Assembly: GCA_016192145.1 (NCBI GenBank)
Contig: JACPUT010000009.1
Location: forward strand, 124,001-188,000
Length of the DNA stretch: 64,000 bases
Reading direction: 5' to 3'
Origin: Acidobacteriota bacterium
GTDB taxonomy: Bacteria; Acidobacteriota; Holophagae; Holophagales; Holophagaceae
Part shown: positions 4,937 to 62,241 of the stretch, in pieces
Position numbering within the stretch: position 1 is the first letter of the stretch
Layout of the letters: each line of letters opens with the position of its first letter
Notes under the pieces: generated by a model
Seen by the model: only the letters and a program-made list of their open reading frames with translations
The model's database searches: none
Told to the model about the DNA's origin: nothing
Position numbers and translations under genes: made by a program

Positions 4937-6013
4937 TCAGGCCCGCCACCCCTCCAGCACCCGGAAGCGCGCGCCCATCTTGCCGGGCAGGGTGAGCTGC
5001 AGCAGGTTCTCCATGCGCTTCATGCGATCCGCCGCGGGCAGGGACATCCACTCCTGCTCCCAGGCCATGAGCGGCGCGTGGGATCGGATCCAGCGGGAGA
5101 GCTCCTGGTGACCCAGCTCGGCGACCCCCGCTTGGGCCAGGAGGTGCTCCAGGCGGGTGAAGTCCACATCGGCCGTGAGGTCCGTGGTGCCGAGGTCCTC
5201 CCACCACTGGCCATCCACGGTGTGGCCCTTGTAGCGGCGAAGGTCGGCCCCTTTGGCCAGGAGGCGGTCGGCGCGCTCGCCGTAGTCGATGGCGAGGAAG
5301 AGGCCGGCCTGAAGGGGGGTGGTGCAGGTGGCCACGAGGGCGGGCAGGCCCTCGGCCCACACGCTGCCGTCGCCGACCTCCGGGCCGTCGCTGTGGCCCT
5401 CGAACCAGGCCGTGGCCTCGCAGGGTTCGGCGGGGTGCCACTCGGGGCCCGTGGCGGTGAGCACCTCCCGCACCCATGCGGAGCCATCCCAGCGCCAGGG
5501 CTGGGCGGGCAGGGCGTCGAAGAGCTCGTTGCTCAGCACGGCGCCGACGAAGGGATCGAGGGTCTCGCCTTCGGCCACGAAGCGGGCGCGGCCGGAGGGG
5601 AGCCAGGGCTCCAGCGCGGCATGGGCGGCGTCCTTGGCGGCGGGGTTGTCGTCGCGGTGGAGGTAACGGAGCGCGGCCGAGAACTCCGGGCTCAGCCCCT
5701 CGGCCGCCCTCAGCACGTCGCGACCCAGCCAACCCCGGCCCGCGCCCGGCTCCAGCACGGTGAAGGTACCCGGCCGCTCCAGCCGCAGCCAGGCCTGCTG
5801 GAAGCGGTGGGCCAGCGCCTCGCCCAGCAGGGGGCCGAGGTCCAGGGCCGTGTAGTAGTCCTTGCCCTCGAAGCCCCAGGGGCCCCCTCCGTCCGGTTTC
5901 GCGCGGCGGTAGTAGCCGAACTCGGGATGGTAGAGGGCGAGGGCCATGACGTCGGCGGCGGGCAGGGGGCCAGCCTGGAGCCGGGACTGGAGCATGTCAG
6001 TCAGGGCATTCAT
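4937..6013 (-). CDS. MidA/NDUFAF7-type SAM-dependent methyltransferase
   Basis: This is a 358-residue class I methyltransferase of the DUF185/MidA family, whose mitochondrial member NDUFAF7 dimethylates an arginine in complex I. Visible marks are YHPEFGYYRR near the N-terminus, DYYTALDLGPLLGEALA, the SAM-binding loop TVLEPGAGRGWLGRDVL, the family motif LSNELFDALPAQPW and LAIDYGERADRLL. The start at 6013 is chosen because it overlaps the preceding TGA (ATGA) and gives the usual N-terminus (MNALTDMLQ). The bacterial substrate is not established. It is coupled to the GxxExxY gene. Confidence 0.9.
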   Translation of the reverse strand: MNALTDMLQSRLQAGPLPAADVMALALYHPEFGYYRRAKPDGGGPWGFEGKDYYTALDLGPLLGEALAHRFQQAWLRLERPGTFTVLEPGAGRGWLGRDVLRAAEGLSPEFSAALRYLHRDDNPAAKDAAHAALEPWLPSGRARFVAEGETLDPFVGAVLSNELFDALPAQPWRWDGSAWVREVLTATGPEWHPAEPCEATAWFEGHSDGPEVGDGSVWAEGLPALVATCTTPLQAGLFLAIDYGERADRLLAKGADLRRYKGHTVDGQWWEDLGTTDLTADVDFTRLEHLLAQAGVAELGHQELSRWIRSHAPLMAWEQEWMSLPAADRMKRMENLLQLTLPGKMGARFRVLEGWRA

Positions 6014-6417
6014 GATCGGGGCTCTCCCAAGATCAACTTGGGCCAGGAGGGGCTCGGCTTGAGGCGTCGGATCTCCAATTTCGGGGAGCCGAAGTTCAGG
6101 AGCAGGCACGTTTCCAGCGCCGTTGCGCGGAGATAATTCAGGCCTTGGGCCAAATGCGAATCCTCCAGAGCTTTGACGGCCTTCAGCTCCACGAGGAGGC
6201 TTCCTTCGACCAGCAGGTCCGCGACGAATTTGCCGATGATGGTGCCTTCGTACCAGACGTCGATGGCCTTCTGCCGCTCGAAGGAGATGCCTGCCCGATC
6301 CAATTCGAGGGCCATCGCGTTCTCGTAAACCTTCTCCAGAAAGCCCGGACCAAGGGTGTTGCTGACCTTGAAGGCGCAGCCTAGGACTTTCTCGGTGAGG
6401 GGATCGTTCTCAAACAC
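6010..6417 (-). CDS. GxxExxY protein (PD-(D/E)XK-like fold)
   Basis: This is a 135-residue protein with the name-giving motif LGPGFLEKVYENAMALEL at residues 23-40. It also has a nuclease-like core: FVADLLVEGSLLVELKAV, i.e. D...ExK, then GLNYLRAT and LLLNFGSPKLEIRR. The family resembles PD-(D/E)XK nucleases, but no function is established. The start is a GTG with GGAAGG upstream; the stop overlaps the methyltransferase ATG. The gene begins 28 nt from the left arm of a long inverted repeat built of GTGATGAACA units. Its base composition looks less GC-rich than its neighbours, which suggests a mobile history. Confidence 0.9.
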   Translation of the reverse strand: MFENDPLTEKVLGCAFKVSNTLGPGFLEKVYENAMALELDRAGISFERQKAIDVWYEGTIIGKFVADLLVEGSLLVELKAVKALEDSHLAQGLNYLRATALETCLLLNFGSPKLEIRRLKPSPSWPKLILGEPRS

Positions 6418-6444
6418 TTAGCCAGCCTTCCAAAAGCAAAAGGA

Positions 6445-6532
6445 AACCGGTGATGAACAGTGATGAAAGCGTGATGAACAGTGATGGGAGCGCCCAGCTT
6501 TTATCACTGTTCATCACTGTTCATCACTGGTT
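6445..6532. repeat. Long inverted repeat with tandem GTGATGAACA units
   Basis: The left arm (about 6445-6484) contains three to four copies of a GTGATGAA(CA) unit. The right arm (6502-6532) is its complement, ATCACTGTTC repeated and ending in ACTGGTT. The arms enclose a short spacer around GGAGCGCCCAGC. The right arm overlaps the last codons and stop (6514) of the MMPL-type transporter, so part of the element has become coding sequence. A flank at 6432-6443 (AAAGCAAAAGGA) is complementary to a flank of the element near 58597. Confidence 0.85.
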
Positions 6533-9081
6533 GGCTTTTTTCTTTCCCCGGCCCTCAACGGCCACCGCTCCAGGATCGCCGGCAGCAGCCACTGCGTCAG
6601 CAGCAAGGCCAGCGCCACCCCCCCCAGGCAGGCGAGGCCGAGGCCCCGGAGACCCCGGTACCCGCTGAACACCAGGCCGCCGAAGCCGGCGAGGGTGGTG
6701 CCCGCGCAGACGGCGTTGACCCGGGCCACCTTGGCGGCGGCGTGGGCTTCGTGGCGGGCGCGGTGGAGCAGGTTGAAGGCGGTGTCCACGCTGACGCCCA
6801 GGGCGATGGGCACGGCCATGAGGCTGAGGAAGGTGAGGGGCTCGCCCGTGGCGCCGAGGATGCCCAGGGCGCCGGCCTGGCTGGCGAGGAGGGGCAGGAG
6901 GGCCAGCAGGGCGAAGCGCAGGGAGCGGCCGAAGAGGGCGACGACGATGAGGATGCCCGCCAGCGTCAGAAGCACCGCCGACTGCACGCTCTGCCAGGCG
7001 ATGGCCTTCACGGCGCGGAAGAGGGGGCGGGTGCCCACGAGGCGGCCCCCGGCCTCCTCCACCTTCGGCCCCACCCGATCCTGCGCCGCCTCGTCCAGGC
7101 GCAGCGGGAGGTTGAGCACGCTGGGCGCGGGGGCGGTGGGCTTGCGGCCGAGGAAGGCGGCCTGGGGGGCCTCGGGCGGGTCCGCCTTGGGCAGGAGGGA
7201 TTGCAGCGCCAGCACGGGTTGGGCGGGATCCGAGGCCGCGAGGCCCAGGGCCTGCAACGGTCGCTCCAACCCCGCGGGATCCAGGCCGGCCTTGGCGGCG
7301 GCCTCCAGCACGGAGCGCCGCCAGGTGTCGCTGGCCAGGGCGAGCCGCAATTCCGCGGAGGGCAGCTGCCAATCGGGGATGGGGAGGCCCTCGGAGCGGA
7401 GCAGCGGGGCGATGCGGTTCCAGCGGGCGGGGAGCTGGTCGGGGTGTTCGAGGGTGAGCTGCAAGGCGAGGGGCTGAAGGCTGGCGCCCAGCACCTTCGC
7501 CAGGCGTTCCTGCAGGGCCAGGGCGGGATTGCCGGAGGCGCGGAAGCGGCGGAGATCCTCCTCCCATCTCACGCGGGGCAGGAGCAGCAGGGCCAGGGCG
7601 AACACGGCCAGGGCCACCTTGGGTTTCCAGGGGGCCTTGCGCACTTTCACGGCCGGTTCCGCCTTGCGGGCGAAGGGGCCCCGCCCCCGGTCCAGCCACA
7701 ACAGGAGGGCCGGCAGGAGCAGGAAGGTCGCCCCGAGGCAGCAGAGCAGGCCCAGCCCCGTGGTGATGCCCAGATCCCGCAGGCCGGGGAAGGGCGTGAA
7801 GGCGAGGGAGGCGAAGGCGGCCACCACCGTGAGCGCGCCAGCCACCACCCCGGGGCCCGTGCCGAGCAGCATGCCCCGCAGGGCCCGCACCTTGGAGGAC
7901 CCCTTGTGCCGCTCCTCCACGTAGCGGCTGAAGAGGAGGATGCCCACGTCATCCCCGACCCCCAGCAGCACGGCCCCAAAGCCCGCCGCCATGAGGTTCA
8001 GGCGGCCCAGGGCCCAGCCCGTGGCGCCCAGGGCCCAGAGCATGCCCACCAGCAGCGGGGCCATCACGAATCCGTAGCCCGCCAGCGTTCGGAAGCCGAT
8101 CCAGTAGACGAGCCCCACGAGGATGAAGCTGAGCCCCAGGGAGAGCAGCACCTCATGGGTGAGGCGCTGGCTTTCGAAGACGGTGATGGCGTGGGCCCCC
8201 GTCACTTGGACGGCGAAGGGCCGATCCGTGCGCCAGGTGAGGGACTGCTCCATCTCCCGGAGGCTGCTGCGCGCGGGCATCACCGGCGGGGCCCCCTCGC
8301 CCAGCCAGCGCAGGGCCCGGAGCGTGCTGAGCGTGTCCGAGGTGGGGAAGGAGGCGACGACGGGCACGAGGACCATGCTCCCGTCCTTGCTTTCCAGGTA
8401 GCCGGTGCGCAGGCGCAGGGTGAAGGCGCGGGCCAGCTCCATGGCCTTCTCCATGCCCTCGCCGCCCTGGGGGGCGAGGCTGCGGAGGCCGAGGGGATCC
8501 AGCCGGGCCAGCGTGGCTTCCACGGGGCTGGGGGAGCCCAGGGCCCGGGCCGTGGCTTCCAGGCGGCGGCGGACTTCCCCGGGATCCCCGAGGGGCGCGA
8601 GGCGATCCCCCAGCCAGGCCGGGGCGAGGGCGTAGAGCGTTTCGGTGGCCGCGCGGCCCACGGCGGGGTCGCCATCCGGCAGGGCCCCCACGGCCAGCAG
8701 GGCGGGCCAGGGGGAGAGGCCCGGCTCGCTGGCCCTGGCCACGGGGCCCGCGAGGCGGCCCTCGGCGGCGAGGCCGTTGAGGGGCATCTGGCTGCGGTCC
8801 AGCAGGCGCTCCACGAGGCCTTCGGCCCAGGCCCGGCGCGCGTCCAGATCCTGCTCCGCGCCCTCCGCCACCAACCAGAGGATCTCCTGCTGGCCGACCC
8901 CCGCCTCGAGGTTGGCGCGCACGGCGGGATGATCCACCGGGAGCACGCTGAGCAGGTCCAACTGCCGCTGCACCTGCCGCACGCCGAGGCCCAGGCCCAC
9001 GGAGAGCAGGGCCACCGCCACCCACAGGCTCAGGGGGCGTCGGAGGTGGAAGCGCAGGAGCGCGCGAAGGAGCTTGTTCAT
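6514..9081 (-). CDS. MMPL/RND-superfamily transporter (HpnN-like)
   Basis: This is an inner-membrane protein of about 855 residues with the RND/MMPL architecture. One N-terminal TM (LSLWVAVALLSVGLGLG) is followed by a large periplasmic domain, a bundle of TMs (VLLSLGLSFILVGLVYWIGF onward) carrying LLGVGDDVGILLFSRYVEE, then a second periplasmic domain and a second TM bundle with VPIALGVSVDTAFNLLHRA. Such proteins export lipids or hopanoids; the cargo here is unknown. ATG 9081 gives a natural N-terminus, and a TTG lies 15 nt upstream. The C-terminal residues (KKPTSDEQ) are encoded inside an inverted-repeat arm. It follows the ATPase gene by 18 nt, so co-transcription is likely. Confidence 0.88.
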   Translation of the reverse strand: MNKLLRALLRFHLRRPLSLWVAVALLSVGLGLGVRQVQRQLDLLSVLPVDHPAVRANLEAGVGQQEILWLVAEGAEQDLDARRAWAEGLVERLLDRSQMPLNGLAAEGRLAGPVARASEPGLSPWPALLAVGALPDGDPAVGRAATETLYALAPAWLGDRLAPLGDPGEVRRRLEATARALGSPSPVEATLARLDPLGLRSLAPQGGEGMEKAMELARAFTLRLRTGYLESKDGSMVLVPVVASFPTSDTLSTLRALRWLGEGAPPVMPARSSLREMEQSLTWRTDRPFAVQVTGAHAITVFESQRLTHEVLLSLGLSFILVGLVYWIGFRTLAGYGFVMAPLLVGMLWALGATGWALGRLNLMAAGFGAVLLGVGDDVGILLFSRYVEERHKGSSKVRALRGMLLGTGPGVVAGALTVVAAFASLAFTPFPGLRDLGITTGLGLLCCLGATFLLLPALLLWLDRGRGPFARKAEPAVKVRKAPWKPKVALAVFALALLLLPRVRWEEDLRRFRASGNPALALQERLAKVLGASLQPLALQLTLEHPDQLPARWNRIAPLLRSEGLPIPDWQLPSAELRLALASDTWRRSVLEAAAKAGLDPAGLERPLQALGLAASDPAQPVLALQSLLPKADPPEAPQAAFLGRKPTAPAPSVLNLPLRLDEAAQDRVGPKVEEAGGRLVGTRPLFRAVKAIAWQSVQSAVLLTLAGILIVVALFGRSLRFALLALLPLLASQAGALGILGATGEPLTFLSLMAVPIALGVSVDTAFNLLHRARHEAHAAAKVARVNAVCAGTTLAGFGGLVFSGYRGLRGLGLACLGGVALALLLTQWLLPAILERWPLRAGERKKPTSDEQ

Positions 9082-57802: not shown

Positions 57803-58333
57803 ATGCCCGTGCCCCTGATCCCCGTCCTCCTCGGCCTGCTGGCCGCGCCCCAGGCCCCCGCCCCAACGCCTGCCGTGAAGGGGGCGGCGGTGTTCCAGGA
57901 GATGAGCGGCCTCGTGGGGAGCTGGGAGGGCACCTTCGCCAACGGCCGCCGGCACACGGTGACCTACCGGCTCACGGCGGGGGGCACGGTGCTCGTGGAG
58001 ACCTGGGCCCTGGCCCCGGGCCGGGAGTCCATGACCCTCTACCACCTGGATGGGGAGGCCCTGGTGGCCACCCACTACTGCCCCCAGGGCAACCAGCCCC
58101 GCCTGCAGGGGGTGGTGGATGGGCACCTCACGCGGCGGTCCTTTGCGTTCCGGGATGGGACGAACCTGCGGGTTCCGGGAGGTTCCCACCAGCACGCCTT
58201 CTGGGTGGAACGGCAGGGTCCGGACAAGTACCTGCGCAGCGAAACCTACGTGGCCAACGGCAGCACGGCGGCGGAGGCCGCGGCGGAAAAGCCTGAGGCG
58301 CCGGTGGTGTACCGGCGGGTGGCCAACCCCTGA
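57803..58333 (+). CDS. Exported hypothetical protein (DUF1579-like lipocalin fold)
   Basis: This is a 176-residue protein with a signal peptide (PVPLIPVLLGLLAAPQAPA), then LVGSWEGTFANGRRHTVTYR, GTVLVETWALAPGRESMTLYHLDGEALVATHYCPQGN. The pattern resembles small beta-barrel proteins that measure 'lipid-like' ligands, but the ligand is unknown. AAAGG precedes the ATG. It is divergent from the cytochrome gene across 121 nt. A large inverted-repeat element follows. Confidence 0.7.
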   Translation: MPVPLIPVLLGLLAAPQAPAPTPAVKGAAVFQEMSGLVGSWEGTFANGRRHTVTYRLTAGGTVLVETWALAPGRESMTLYHLDGEALVATHYCPQGNQPRLQGVVDGHLTRRSFAFRDGTNLRVPGGSHQHAFWVERQGPDKYLRSETYVANGSTAAEAAAEKPEAPVVYRRVANP

Positions 58334-58356
58334 GGACGGGGACAGAGAAAAAAGGG

Positions 58357-58593
58357 TTAACAGGGATGAAGGGGATAATGGGGATGGGCCGCCGACCCAT
58401 GGGCGGTCATCCCCCTGCGGGGCGGCGCCGGGCGGACCTTCGGGGGCCTTCCCGGCGCCGCCCCGCAGGGCTGGTTCAGCAAGCTGAACCAGGGGCCGAA
58501 GGCCCGGATGACCTTGTCGGGAGGAGGTGGTCCTATGGAAATTCGAGAAGGCCAGAGATCGAGCATCCCCTTCATCCCCTTCATCCCTGTTAA
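58357..58593. repeat. Large inverted-repeat element with an internal four-helix junction
   Basis: The outer arms are 58357-58386 (TTAACAGGGATGAAGGGGAT...) and 58564-58593, matching 28 of 30 and made of GATGAAGGG units. Inside, GGTCATCC (58405-58412) pairs with GGATGACC (58506-58513). This stem encloses hairpin A (18 perfect bp, 58415-58432 with 58451-58468), hairpin B (CTGGTTCAG/CTGAACCAG, 58471-58492) and hairpin C (GGGCC-GAA-GGCCC, 58493-58505), separated by 0-2 nt. GCCGACCCA at 58391 matches the core of other elements. The 365-nt gap 58334-58698 holds no gene. Confidence 0.85.
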
Positions 58594-58698
58594 ATCGCTT
58601 TTGCTTTTCAAGGCAGCCCAAACCTCGAATCTTGGTGATCTTAGCCCTATCCATGTCAGGCCCCCGTAGGGTTCAATGGTCCCAACCCCTGGAGCGAC

Positions 58699-59700
58699 AT
58701 GGCCTGGCAGCACCGCATCAAGGAAGCTCTGGCCTCGCCGAAGGCCATCACGCTGGGCGTCATGGCGGGCCTGTTGGCGGGGGTGCTTGGTTACACCACC
58801 CAGCCCCTGCTGGGACACTCCAAACGGGCCGAGGGCCCCGGTGGGGATCCCGCGCGGCTGGAGGCCCACGTGCGCGCCCTGGTGGCCTGCGGGCCCCGGG
58901 AGCTGATCCACCCGGAGGCCCTGAAGGCCGCCGCCACCTACATCGAGGGCCACCTCAAAGCCGCGGGGGGCCGCGTGCAGCGGCAGGTCTATGCGGTGCG
59001 GGGCCGGTCCGTGGCGAACCTGGTGGCCCGCTTCGGGCCCGAGCCCACCCTGGGCGGTCCCGGCCTGCTGGTCATCGGCGCCCACTACGACACGTGCATG
59101 GGCCTGCCCGGCGCCGATGACAACACCAGCGGCGTGGCCGTGCTCCTGGAGGTGGCCCGCCTCCTGGGCGAGCATGCGCCCAGCACCCCCGTGGAACTGG
59201 TGGCCTGGACGCTGGAAGAGCCGCCCCACTTCCGCACCGAGGAGATGGGCAGCCGCGTCCACGCCAAGGCCCTCAAGGCGTCTGGCCTATCCGTGCGCCT
59301 CGTCCTCTCCCTGGAGATGCTCGGCACCTTCGACGACACCCCCGGCAGCCAGCACTACCCCCTCCTGGGCCTGGATTGGATCTATCCGGACAAAGGCAAC
59401 TTCCTCGCCCTCGTGGGCGGCTGGGGCGACGGCTGGAAGGTACGCCAGATCAAGGCGGCCCTGAGCGGGGGCGAGATCCCCATCAGGTCCATCAACGCCC
59501 CCAGCGGCATCGTGGGTATCGACTTCTCGGACCACGCCTCCTACTGGAAGGAGGGCCTGCCCGCCCTGATGCTCACGGATACGGCGTTCTTTCGGAATCC
59601 GAGGTATCACACGGAGCGGGATGTGCCGGAGCAATTAGATTTTCCGAGAATGGAAGGGGGAGTTCGAGTTGTGCTAAGTTTAATAAAGATATCATTATAA
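58699..59700 (+). CDS. M28-family zinc aminopeptidase, membrane-anchored
   Basis: This is a 333-residue protein with an N-terminal TM (AITLGVMAGLLAGVLGYTT) and an M28 peptidase domain. Zinc ligands are suggested by VIGAHYDT, GADDNTSGVAVLLE, WTLEEPPHF and the late SDHASYWKEGLPALMLTDT...YHTERD. Its final 20-odd codons (from about 59630) switch abruptly to AT-rich codons (TTA, AGA, ATA) while still reading LDFPRMEGGVRVVLSL, like a normal family C-terminus. This marks the junction with the acquired DNA that follows. Confidence 0.88.
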   Translation: MAWQHRIKEALASPKAITLGVMAGLLAGVLGYTTQPLLGHSKRAEGPGGDPARLEAHVRALVACGPRELIHPEALKAAATYIEGHLKAAGGRVQRQVYAVRGRSVANLVARFGPEPTLGGPGLLVIGAHYDTCMGLPGADDNTSGVAVLLEVARLLGEHAPSTPVELVAWTLEEPPHFRTEEMGSRVHAKALKASGLSVRLVLSLEMLGTFDDTPGSQHYPLLGLDWIYPDKGNFLALVGGWGDGWKVRQIKAALSGGEIPIRSINAPSGIVGIDFSDHASYWKEGLPALMLTDTAFFRNPRYHTERDVPEQLDFPRMEGGVRVVLSLIKISL

Positions 59701-59784: not shown

Positions 59785-62241
59785 ATGTTAGAATTGCAAA
59801 AATTAGGTGTTTCGCCTGAAGATTCTTTACAGCTACTTCGTGCGCTCGATGATGGGGCAGTAAATTTGCTAACGGGTGCAGGAGCAAGTTACGGTGTACT
59901 TGGAGGCGATGGGCAGGAGTTGAAAGGCGGTCAGGACCTTTCTAGGGAGCTAAATTCGAATTTTAATCTTGAAAATGTTGAACCTGATTCTTCAAATCTG
60001 CAACTTGTATACGGAGATATTGCAGCGGTCTCTGAATTAAGAAAAACCCTAGCCCAGTTTTTACGCAATCGATTTTCCAGGTGCGGCGTTACATGGCAAG
60101 GACTATTTTTTGACTTCCCTTGGAAGCGAATTTGGACCCTTAATATTGACGATGTCCTTCAGGTTGCTGCAGCAAGGAAAACAAATATTCGTCTTAAATC
60201 ATTCACTTGGAATCAGGAATTTGCTGTACGTTCTTTGTCCCAGGCGGAACTCCAGATTATTTACTTACATGGGCGCGCCTCACTAATTAATGTCGACTTG
60301 GATAATATTATATTTTCCATTAAAGATTATGCTTCACGACATGAAAATTCTCCGGGTTGGCATTCAGAATTTCGTTCCGAATTCACAAAGAAACCATTTA
60401 TCATTTGCGGCGCAAAATTGCGGGACGAATTCGATTTGGCGACAGTTCTCGAGTTCGGTAACAAATCTAGAGAGCGTGGAGGTTGTCCATCTTTCATTGT
60501 TCTACGGGGGTTTGCTCCAGGCGAGGGAAGTCGATTTCTGCGACAAGGCCTGGTACCAATTGCTTCCACAGGTGAAAATTTTTTCCAGGCGCTCAAAGCT
60601 GATCTAGAATCCTTTCGGAATCTCCAGGGAGTTACCAGTGCTCTGCTGCGCGAAGCGGCTATTTCTGTTCGTGCTTGCTTTAAGCCATTGTCGTCAGTTT
60701 CACCTAGACCTCGCCGAGTTCTGGATTTTTACTCGTCTACAGAAACCCAGTGGCACCATATTCTCGAAAACTTAGACGCACAACTTGATCAAGTTAGTCA
60801 CTCTTCAAATTGGCTTCTAGAAGAACAAATCGATCCTAGAGTCGTGCTGATTAGCGGCGGCCACGTGTGTGGGAAAACAGCCTCAGCACTGAGAATTGCC
60901 GCTTCACTAGAAGCGAAGGGGTACGAGGCCTGGTACTTCCGCAATGAGGAGCGTTTTGACGAACATGCGGTTTGCGAGTATCTCTCTTCAAGGCCAAAAA
61001 CAATATTCGTGTTAGACGATTGCGCAGATTTCTCAAGCTCAATGTCAGCGTTAGTAGCTCAAGTTATAAAGCGAGGGTTGCCGCTTCGGGTCGTTGCGAC
61101 AACCGAGGCTTGGCGACAGAGGGGTGTTCAAGCTGACCTTTTAAATGCGAATGTGCGCATTGTTGAACTCGAACCTGTACCAAGGTCACATTTTGGAAGT
61201 ATCTTTCAATTGAGAAATCAAAAGGGACGCTTGGGTCGATGCACCGAGATGAAATTGAAGGACGCGTGGGATGAATTTCGAGCCAAATTTAATCAACGTT
61301 CACTCGAGTGGCTAGAGAGTCTAGAAGGTGCACTCAACTATAGGCAAATCATCACTGAGCTGTTGCAGTCGGTCACTACTAGCACTGTTGAACGAAGGCT
61401 CATTTTGACAGCTGCGGCCACGCATCGATTTGGATATTCCTTGCCATTTTACTTGGCGAGTTCGCTGAGCGGTACGCAGGATCTTGAGGGTCTCCTTAAC
61501 CCACCAAGCAAGTATTCGGATTTGGCATATTTAGATGATAAAGGCCTCAGGCTGAGAAGCCGGTCAATTGCAATTGACGTATGGAAACTCGCAAGCGGAA
61601 AGGAGCGTTACGATATTTCTTTATATCTAGCGAAGCAACTTTCACCATTAGTTGTTCCACAATCAATTTCTCGTCGAACATACCCATATCGAATTTTACG
61701 CCAATTAATGGATTGTGAAACTGTTGAAAAGGATCTTCGAGAGTTCGCAGATCAATGGTACGCAGATTTATTACCACTAATGGGCTGGAACTCACGCTAC
61801 TGGGAACAGCGTGCGCTTCTAGCGGCGAATGCTAAGCAAGATGAGGCGGCATATTCTTATGCGAAGCAAGCAGTCGCCATTCATCCAGGACACCCGTACT
61901 CCCATACGACTCTTGGCAAGATTTGCATGCAGATAAGTATTCGGCGAGCAGATAATATTGGCCTAGAAAGGTTATTGGAGGGTGTAGAGGAATTGAAGGT
62001 TTCTCGGGAGCTTGCCAAAGAACGCAATAATCTGTCGGAGCATCCCTATGTAACGTTCTTTTCTTACGCACTCGCAGCCTACAGGCTTTATCCATCCCAG
62101 GTTTCATGGATCTCTCGCATGTGGGAAGAATGGCTACAAGCAGCGAATAGCTCTAGGCTCTTCGGTTTTGATGCAGAGGGACAAAGTCAGCTAGACAAGT
62201 ACAGGCATCAATGGAGAAACCTCACCGTATTAACGGAATAA
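59785..62241 (+). CDS. SIR2-like NADase / P-loop (STAND-like) NTPase / TPR protein, probable antiphage defence
   Basis: This is an 818-residue single-gene module. SIR2-like residues 25-280: LLTGAGAS (31-35), RIWTLNIDD with Asn120, IIYLHG with His162, and FIICGAKLRDEFD (205-217). NTPase at about 340-560: Walker A GGHVCGKT (358-365), Walker B TIFVLDD (406-412) and LRVVATTEAWR. The C-terminus is helical with a TPR-like pair near 685-720 (AAYSYAKQAVAIHPGHPYSH). The domain order matches SIR2-STAND (Avs5-like) NAD-depleting defence proteins but is much shorter than typical Avs proteins. It is strikingly AT-rich against its high-GC neighbours, so recent horizontal transfer is likely. It has its own promoter-like leader. 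Confidence 0.85.
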   Translation: MLELQKLGVSPEDSLQLLRALDDGAVNLLTGAGASYGVLGGDGQELKGGQDLSRELNSNFNLENVEPDSSNLQLVYGDIAAVSELRKTLAQFLRNRFSRCGVTWQGLFFDFPWKRIWTLNIDDVLQVAAARKTNIRLKSFTWNQEFAVRSLSQAELQIIYLHGRASLINVDLDNIIFSIKDYASRHENSPGWHSEFRSEFTKKPFIICGAKLRDEFDLATVLEFGNKSRERGGCPSFIVLRGFAPGEGSRFLRQGLVPIASTGENFFQALKADLESFRNLQGVTSALLREAAISVRACFKPLSSVSPRPRRVLDFYSSTETQWHHILENLDAQLDQVSHSSNWLLEEQIDPRVVLISGGHVCGKTASALRIAASLEAKGYEAWYFRNEERFDEHAVCEYLSSRPKTIFVLDDCADFSSSMSALVAQVIKRGLPLRVVATTEAWRQRGVQADLLNANVRIVELEPVPRSHFGSIFQLRNQKGRLGRCTEMKLKDAWDEFRAKFNQRSLEWLESLEGALNYRQIITELLQSVTTSTVERRLILTAAATHRFGYSLPFYLASSLSGTQDLEGLLNPPSKYSDLAYLDDKGLRLRSRSIAIDVWKLASGKERYDISLYLAKQLSPLVVPQSISRRTYPYRILRQLMDCETVEKDLREFADQWYADLLPLMGWNSRYWEQRALLAANAKQDEAAYSYAKQAVAIHPGHPYSHTTLGKICMQISIRRADNIGLERLLEGVEELKVSRELAKERNNLSEHPYVTFFSYALAAYRLYPSQVSWISRMWEEWLQAANSSRLFGFDAEGQSQLDKYRHQWRNLTVLTE

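Follow-up and report, generated by a model that had tools for sequence, protein, structure and literature searches.

The four-way junction at positions 58405-58513 of the window, the 64,000-nucleotide stretch of DNA analysed here, lies within a non-coding, interspersed mobile DNA element, copies of which occur at unrelated places and are present or absent between relatives. The element consists of nested palindromes, namely, outer arms, a conserved GACCCA motif and a cloverleaf of four abutting helices. We consider the junction to be the core of this mobile palindromic element, a non-autonomous analogue of REPs and MITEs that is probably served by a GxxExxY protein rather than by a Y1/RAYT transposase. 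The element, its neighbours and a GxxExxY gene elsewhere in the window have the following features:

6010-6417, minus strand: GxxExxY gene (PDDEXK_3 nuclease, 135 aa; TIGR04256 140.7 bits, cut-off 35; PF13366 137.9 bits)
57803-58333: preceding gene, with boundaries by our own reading
58348-58386, plus strand: left outer arm, an A-rich edge followed by the units TTAACAGGGATG-AAGGGGATA-ATGGGGATG (inverted-repeat pair I1)
58394-58399, plus strand: GACCCA motif, shortly 5' of the junction, invariant in 8 of 8 aligned copies from the same genome
58405-58412 (GGTCATCC) and 58506-58513 (GGATGACC), plus strand: P1, the 8-bp closing stem, seen in the fold and in the covariation of alignments A2 and A6
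58413-58470, plus strand: P2, the long hairpin, with 20 perfect base pairs (58413-58432/58451-58470) and a weaker inner hairpin
58471-58479 and 58484-58492, plus strand: P3, a hairpin of 9 bp with the loop CAAG in the fold
58493-58497 and 58501-58505, plus strand: P4, the hairpin GGGCC-GAA-GGCCC, of 5 bp with the loop GAA in the fold
58564-58602, plus strand: right outer arm, complementary to the left arm and followed by a T-rich stretch
58699-59700: M28 peptidase gene (Peptidase_M28 80.5 bits)

Refolding of the window sequence confirmed the coordinates and the four helices of the junction, which an earlier note, made from the sequence alone, had described as abutting; in the minimum-energy fold, zero unpaired bases separate the junction helices. 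The closing stem and the hairpins with the CAAG and GAA loops are as that note had given them, whereas the hairpin that it described as 18 perfect base pairs exists but extends to 20. Similarly, the enclosing repeat that it put at 30-bp arms and 237 nt overall is real and slightly longer, with arms of 39 nt that are 85% complementary and a total length of 255 nt. The comparison with shuffled controls that it had proposed yielded a minimum free energy of -94.2 kcal/mol for the junction RNA versus a shuffled mean of -57.5 (sd 4.0; z -9.2), a value reached by 0 of 200 shuffles, and with DNA parameters the z-scores were -10.9 for the plus strand and -10.1 for the minus strand. Some abutting four-way junction also appeared in 14 of 1000 dinucleotide shuffles of this G+C-rich sequence, with a best energy of -77.8, which is far weaker, and such a topology occurred at weaker energy in 37 of the 6389 110-nt frames of the window. 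Topology alone was therefore rejected as evidence; the junction is remarkable in its energy, its perfection and its recurrence.

A DNA search of the same genome (G000) returned 28 matches, some of which represent the core with other arms and others the arms with another core. Nine places in this genome fold in the order GACCCA, P1, long P2, P3 and short P4, including one that has lost most of P2 and one with a short P2, and three of the nine (C7:247k, C7:283k and C7:335k) have wholly different P1-P4 sequences in an identical helix order. Of the 61 genomes of the family, which we take to be Holophagaceae, 14 gave matches to a covariance model built from five copies of the same genome (R1), with as many as 24 in a single genome. 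These counts are subject to the tendency of draft assemblies to miss near-identical copies, several matches in G043 being located at contig ends. A search of 149 genomes of the phylum with a model built from 46 copies (R2) found the element in 7, which all belong to the family of the window, and located it at about 15 places in the window's own genome. Copies adjoin unrelated genes in either direction. A home-made codon-usage caller identified both neighbours for 55 copies, of which 19 have convergent, 31 codirectional (13 sense and 18 antisense) and 5 divergent neighbours, a distribution expected of insertions that avoid promoters.

The arms consist of about three 9-10-nt units, and their sequence varies from copy to copy, although the arm type of the window copy recurs at other places in its genome. 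The left and right arms of one and the same copy nevertheless tend to agree, with a median local score of 20 compared to 12 for far flanks; the two score distributions overlap, and 33 of 62 copies (3 of 65 were dropped) exceed the control maximum. The GACCCA motif is decayed in part of the copies from other genomes. Further palindromes were noted. At five loci of G015 (L037, L041, L045, L049 and L053), arms of the CATCCCCTTCATCCCC type enclose a different palindromic core, GTTCCCGCAGGGCCAG ... GACCCATCCC ... CTGGCCCTGCGGGAAC; GACCCA is present there, and no four-way junction was noticed by eye. In the window's genome, L023 (around 1490-1600) and L026 (G000:C17:152 kb and C4:217 kb) are simple long hairpins, with arms of iterated units, a short loop and no core. 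Many copies in genus g4, which we take to be Geothrix, have a further inverted repeat, (C)CTGRTTATCGGC ... GCCGATAASCAG(G), in their outer flanks (L089-L145), and this repeat possibly marks the true ends of the element in those copies. Nesting inside other arm palindromes, as read by eye in about 10 g4 copies, is not claimed here, given that only 1 of 47 exceeded the control maximum in a score test.

At two sites, the element is missing in close relatives, which indicates that the family moves. At one of them (L100), it is present in G051, and the matching flanks in G057, G049, G050, G052 and G053 enclose 34-41 nt of unlike sequence instead; at the other (L123), G043 carries the element together with an extra hairpin, and G063 and G068 have 11 nt and 17 nt, respectively, in its place. 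Thus, both empty sites, which are diverged intergenic DNA, contain a short unrelated stretch where the element would be, and no clean target-site duplication was seen at either. No syntenic relative was found for the site of the window copy itself, so that presence and absence are read from L100 and L123. Elsewhere, sites are shared among three genomes (L098/L111/L131) or between two (L121/L136 and L092/L106). MITEs and comparable palindromic elements of bacteria, ERIC among them, are short and non-coding, have terminal inverted repeats and are present or absent between relatives. The element described here is likewise short (255 bp) and non-coding, with 39-nt inverted arms and presence or absence at two sites, but it differs from them in that no target-site duplication was seen at its diverged empty sites and in arms that vary among copies yet match within a copy. 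We know of no DDE transposase partner of this element. The putative counterpart of the autonomous partner of a MITE is suggested by a locus in G014 and by the pair L008/L231, which share arm types with GxxExxY loci.

Among known systems, REPtrons and TIRtrons, in which REPs (repetitive extragenic palindromes) are associated with RAYT/TIRYT tyrosine transposases, are among the closest parallels (PMC3733652). Like REPs, the element is a short intergenic palindrome present in many copies, and as in REPtrons, a small gene is bracketed by related inverted repeats and non-coding copies lie elsewhere in the genome (PMC3733652). The differences are that a PD-(D/E)XK nuclease takes the place of the HUH tyrosine transposase as the product of the bracketed gene, that the arms are long and composed of 9-10-nt units, and that a four-way junction of 109 nt forms the core. 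No Y1 transposase (PF01797) was found in the window's genome, and the domain occurs in 12 of 61 genomes of the family and in 2 of the 13 g4 genomes that carry the element. A Y1/RAYT enzyme was accordingly rejected as the mobiliser in the window's genome, and the element is REP-like without being a member of the REP/RAYT class, because a defining enzyme is absent from that genome.

The arms are of the same kind as those that flank GxxExxY genes (TIGR04256/PF13366) in many phyla, with the difference that the element has no gene and carries the four-way core in the gene's place. Within the family, such arms were detected at 32 of 34 GxxExxY loci versus 8 of 266 shifted controls. A second set of 77 loci from many phyla (3 of 80 were dropped at contig edges), which by record title comprise Planctomycetes, Chloroflexota, Verrucomicrobia, Acidobacteriota, Pseudomonadota and others, had arms at 66 loci versus 5 of 286 shifted controls, so that the pooled figures are 98 of 111 loci and 13 of 552 controls. 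In the protein subset of the many-phyla set, almost throughout, the arms are of one type, near TCCGCAGATTACGCAGATTACGCAGATT. Across the 32 of 34 family loci with arms of at least 25 bits, arms are more alike where the proteins are more alike, with a Mantel r of 0.60 that was reached in 0 of 2000 permutations (uncorrected for genome kinship), and recognition of the arms by the protein is plausible, judging from the way in which arm type follows GxxExxY clade.

At individual loci, core and gene occur together. In G014, a four-way element adjoins a GxxExxY gene, and each of the two is enclosed by CCGGTGATGAACGGTG-type arms. The copy at C7:247k of the window's genome (L008) shares the arm type of the window copy and comes immediately after a truncated GxxExxY gene (residues 1-25 of the family, TIGR04256 E 3e-4) resembling the GxxExxY gene of L231 in another genome, where a hairpin of the window's arm type follows. 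GxxExxY genes are present in all 14 element-bearing genomes of the family and in 34 of the 47 others; given that 48 of 61 genomes have them anyway, their presence in all 14 is weak evidence. Among g4 genomes, those with the element have a mean of 4.8 GxxExxY genes compared to 2.3 in those without (p 0.006, uncorrected for kinship). Whereas GxxExxY is widespread, the four-way core was found in the window's family only, and it therefore does not belong to GxxExxY elements in general. We abandoned the amplification of GxxExxY in G006 as proof of jumping: this genome has 50 matches, and the 20 copies that were profiled (L374-L393) are one truncated gene with arms inside a longer conserved block, the upstream part of which reads by eye as an IS transposase, which indicates hitch-hiking inside an IS-like block, not independent jumps. 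To our knowledge, no transposition by GxxExxY proteins has been described.

The GxxExxY gene of the window (6010-6417) may encode a relative of the mobilising enzyme. The arms of this gene are of a different type (GTGATGAACAGTGATG units) from those of the four-way element, and, unlike at most GxxExxY loci, a palindrome (about 6438-6539) was found only 5' of the gene; arms on both sides are a feature observed here and not part of the definition of the family. The AlphaFold model of the protein (pLDDT 88.8) has a PD-(D/E)XK fold and matched SSO0001 (4ic1, a Cas4 protein; Z 9.2) most closely and also Hjc (1gef; Z 6.6), whereas a sequence search of the PDB with the protein gave only a chance-level match. 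The likeness to archaeal Hjc and Cas4-type nucleases is at the level of the fold and implies no shared function. Searches of open-access papers in PMC returned no work that was evidently about the function of GxxExxY (PMC8934634 contains an incidental mention) and no description of the four-way element or of the arms flanking GxxExxY genes.

From the anatomy of the element and its association with these genes, we infer that folded DNA is most likely propagated by an arm-matched GxxExxY nuclease. The form acted on would be folded-back DNA, either a cruciform or single-strand hairpins arising during replication; a GxxExxY PD-(D/E)XK nuclease of the matching clade would bind or cut the arms and thereby allow the element to spread in trans, in a role similar to that of RAYT transposases for REPs, and the core would be retained since poorly folding copies would fail to propagate. 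In an unlikely but serious alternative, the palindrome is moved by other means, such as a DDE or another host transposase or replication and recombination, and GxxExxY genes merely reside in palindromes of the same kind. Such an alternative is consistent with the indirect case for GxxExxY action, with the lack of a target-site duplication that would name the enzyme and with the IS-like element of G006, where a GxxExxY fragment does hitch-hike; hitch-hiking, however, does not account for arms whose type changes with the clade of the GxxExxY protein across many phyla, and Y1/RAYT is missing not only from the window's genome but also from 11 of the 13 g4 genomes with the element. Beyond propagation by GxxExxY, we tentatively entertain a broader interpretation, under which GxxExxY genes and arm palindromes would form an undescribed, phylum-spanning class of mobile DNA in which a lone PD-(D/E)XK nuclease would recognise iterated, clade-specific arms and propagate folded palindromes, the four-way element would be a non-autonomous passenger of this class, and its cloverleaf might mimic a branched DNA intermediate.

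The compensatory changes in relatives for which the earlier note had proposed a search are abundant, so that its observation survives the refutation test that it had set. In five copies from the same genome (A2, a plain MAFFT alignment with a structure derived from its own members), 12 of 47 pairs show change on both sides. In 46 copies (A6, hits from 48 loci chosen by E-value), this rises to 37 of 47 pairs, a number matched in 0 of 500 shuffles, with 231 double-changed cells versus 59 in shuffles, although the A6 alignment was fitted to the structure and thus leans towards it. Pairing in A6 is 94% and falls to 44% or less when the partner is slid by 1-3 bases. Change on both sides is seen in 16 of 17 pairs of the outer P2 and in 8 of 10 pairs of P3, and P4 is nearly invariant (99.6% paired cells), with a loop that varies among GAA, GCA and GTA. 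In 60 distinct copies (from 65, without L007, L008, L141 and L142, which have divergent stems or are truncated, and with one identical row merged), we counted 77 G-U and 92 A-C combinations, and for 25 of these 60 it was the sense strand that gave the better fold. In a single pipeline, the four-way copies gave 29 G-U and 31 A-C, with the sense strand better in 18 of 46, in contrast to 93 G-U and 4 A-C, with the sense strand better in 26 of 27, for RNase P from the same family (27 loci from 27 genomes; 1 of 28, cut by a contig end, was left out). Because G-U equals A-C, unlike in RNase P, the fold is kept at the DNA level and not as RNA.

These symmetric counts, together with perfect G+C-rich hairpins, also fit a mutational DNA process in which template switching at hairpins perfects imperfect palindromes without selection on the fold. 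We regard this as rather improbable, since such correction would treat each hairpin singly, whereas the layout and GACCCA recur despite fully different stem sequences, which implies that something holds the whole layout.

A structured RNA, that is, a junction transcribed as a small RNA or a cis-regulatory RNA, was the other possibility raised in the earlier note, and the very stable fold, the strong covariation and the large-cloverleaf shape would all agree with it. This origin is nevertheless very unlikely: G-U equals A-C where RNase P of the same family has an excess of 93 to 4, there is no strand bias in energy, copies with codirectional neighbours show no consistent orientation (13 sense versus 18 antisense), a search of 58000-58900 against Rfam gave nothing with E values up to 1, and the element is absent from close relatives at the sites tested. 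What the G-U/A-C test indicates is that single copies are not maintained as RNAs; decay of dead copies would likewise yield equal G-U and A-C, and an RNA phase in the active lineage of the element would be compatible with the test. The alternative offered in that note, a DNA cruciform recognised by a protein, is supported as regards DNA and extends to a mobile interspersed element, and recognition by a protein is plausible from the correspondence between arm type and GxxExxY clade.

That the junction serves to terminate or attenuate transcription of the M28 peptidase gene or of the preceding gene is hardly credible. The left arm does start 14 bp past the preceding stop, the right arm ends 96 bp ahead of the M28 start and a T-rich stretch follows it, but 1 weak hit was found among 15 loci of M28 matches, and the copies adjoin unrelated genes in either direction. 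A terminator function is possible as a side effect of the element. A link to the M28 gene was likewise rejected, its relatives being only about 50% identical and without the element nearby, and the element is not a regulator specific to this gene. Separately, we note that the gene adjoining the M28 gene (59785-62241, plus strand), which encodes an 818-aa protein with SIR2-like and STAND NTPase domains (PF13289, PF25199) and a PADLOC match to Avs5 (E 2.7e-6), is likely an anti-phage defence gene.

The comparison of G-U with A-C against an RNase P control provides a cheap discriminator of DNA-level and RNA-level covariation, and it is useful because covariation alone would have labelled this element an RNA. 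The change of arm sequence with protein clade over many phyla would amount to a natural set of nuclease/target pairs. An odd cluster of hairpins becomes a testable mobile-DNA system, and a role is suggested for the widespread GxxExxY proteins.
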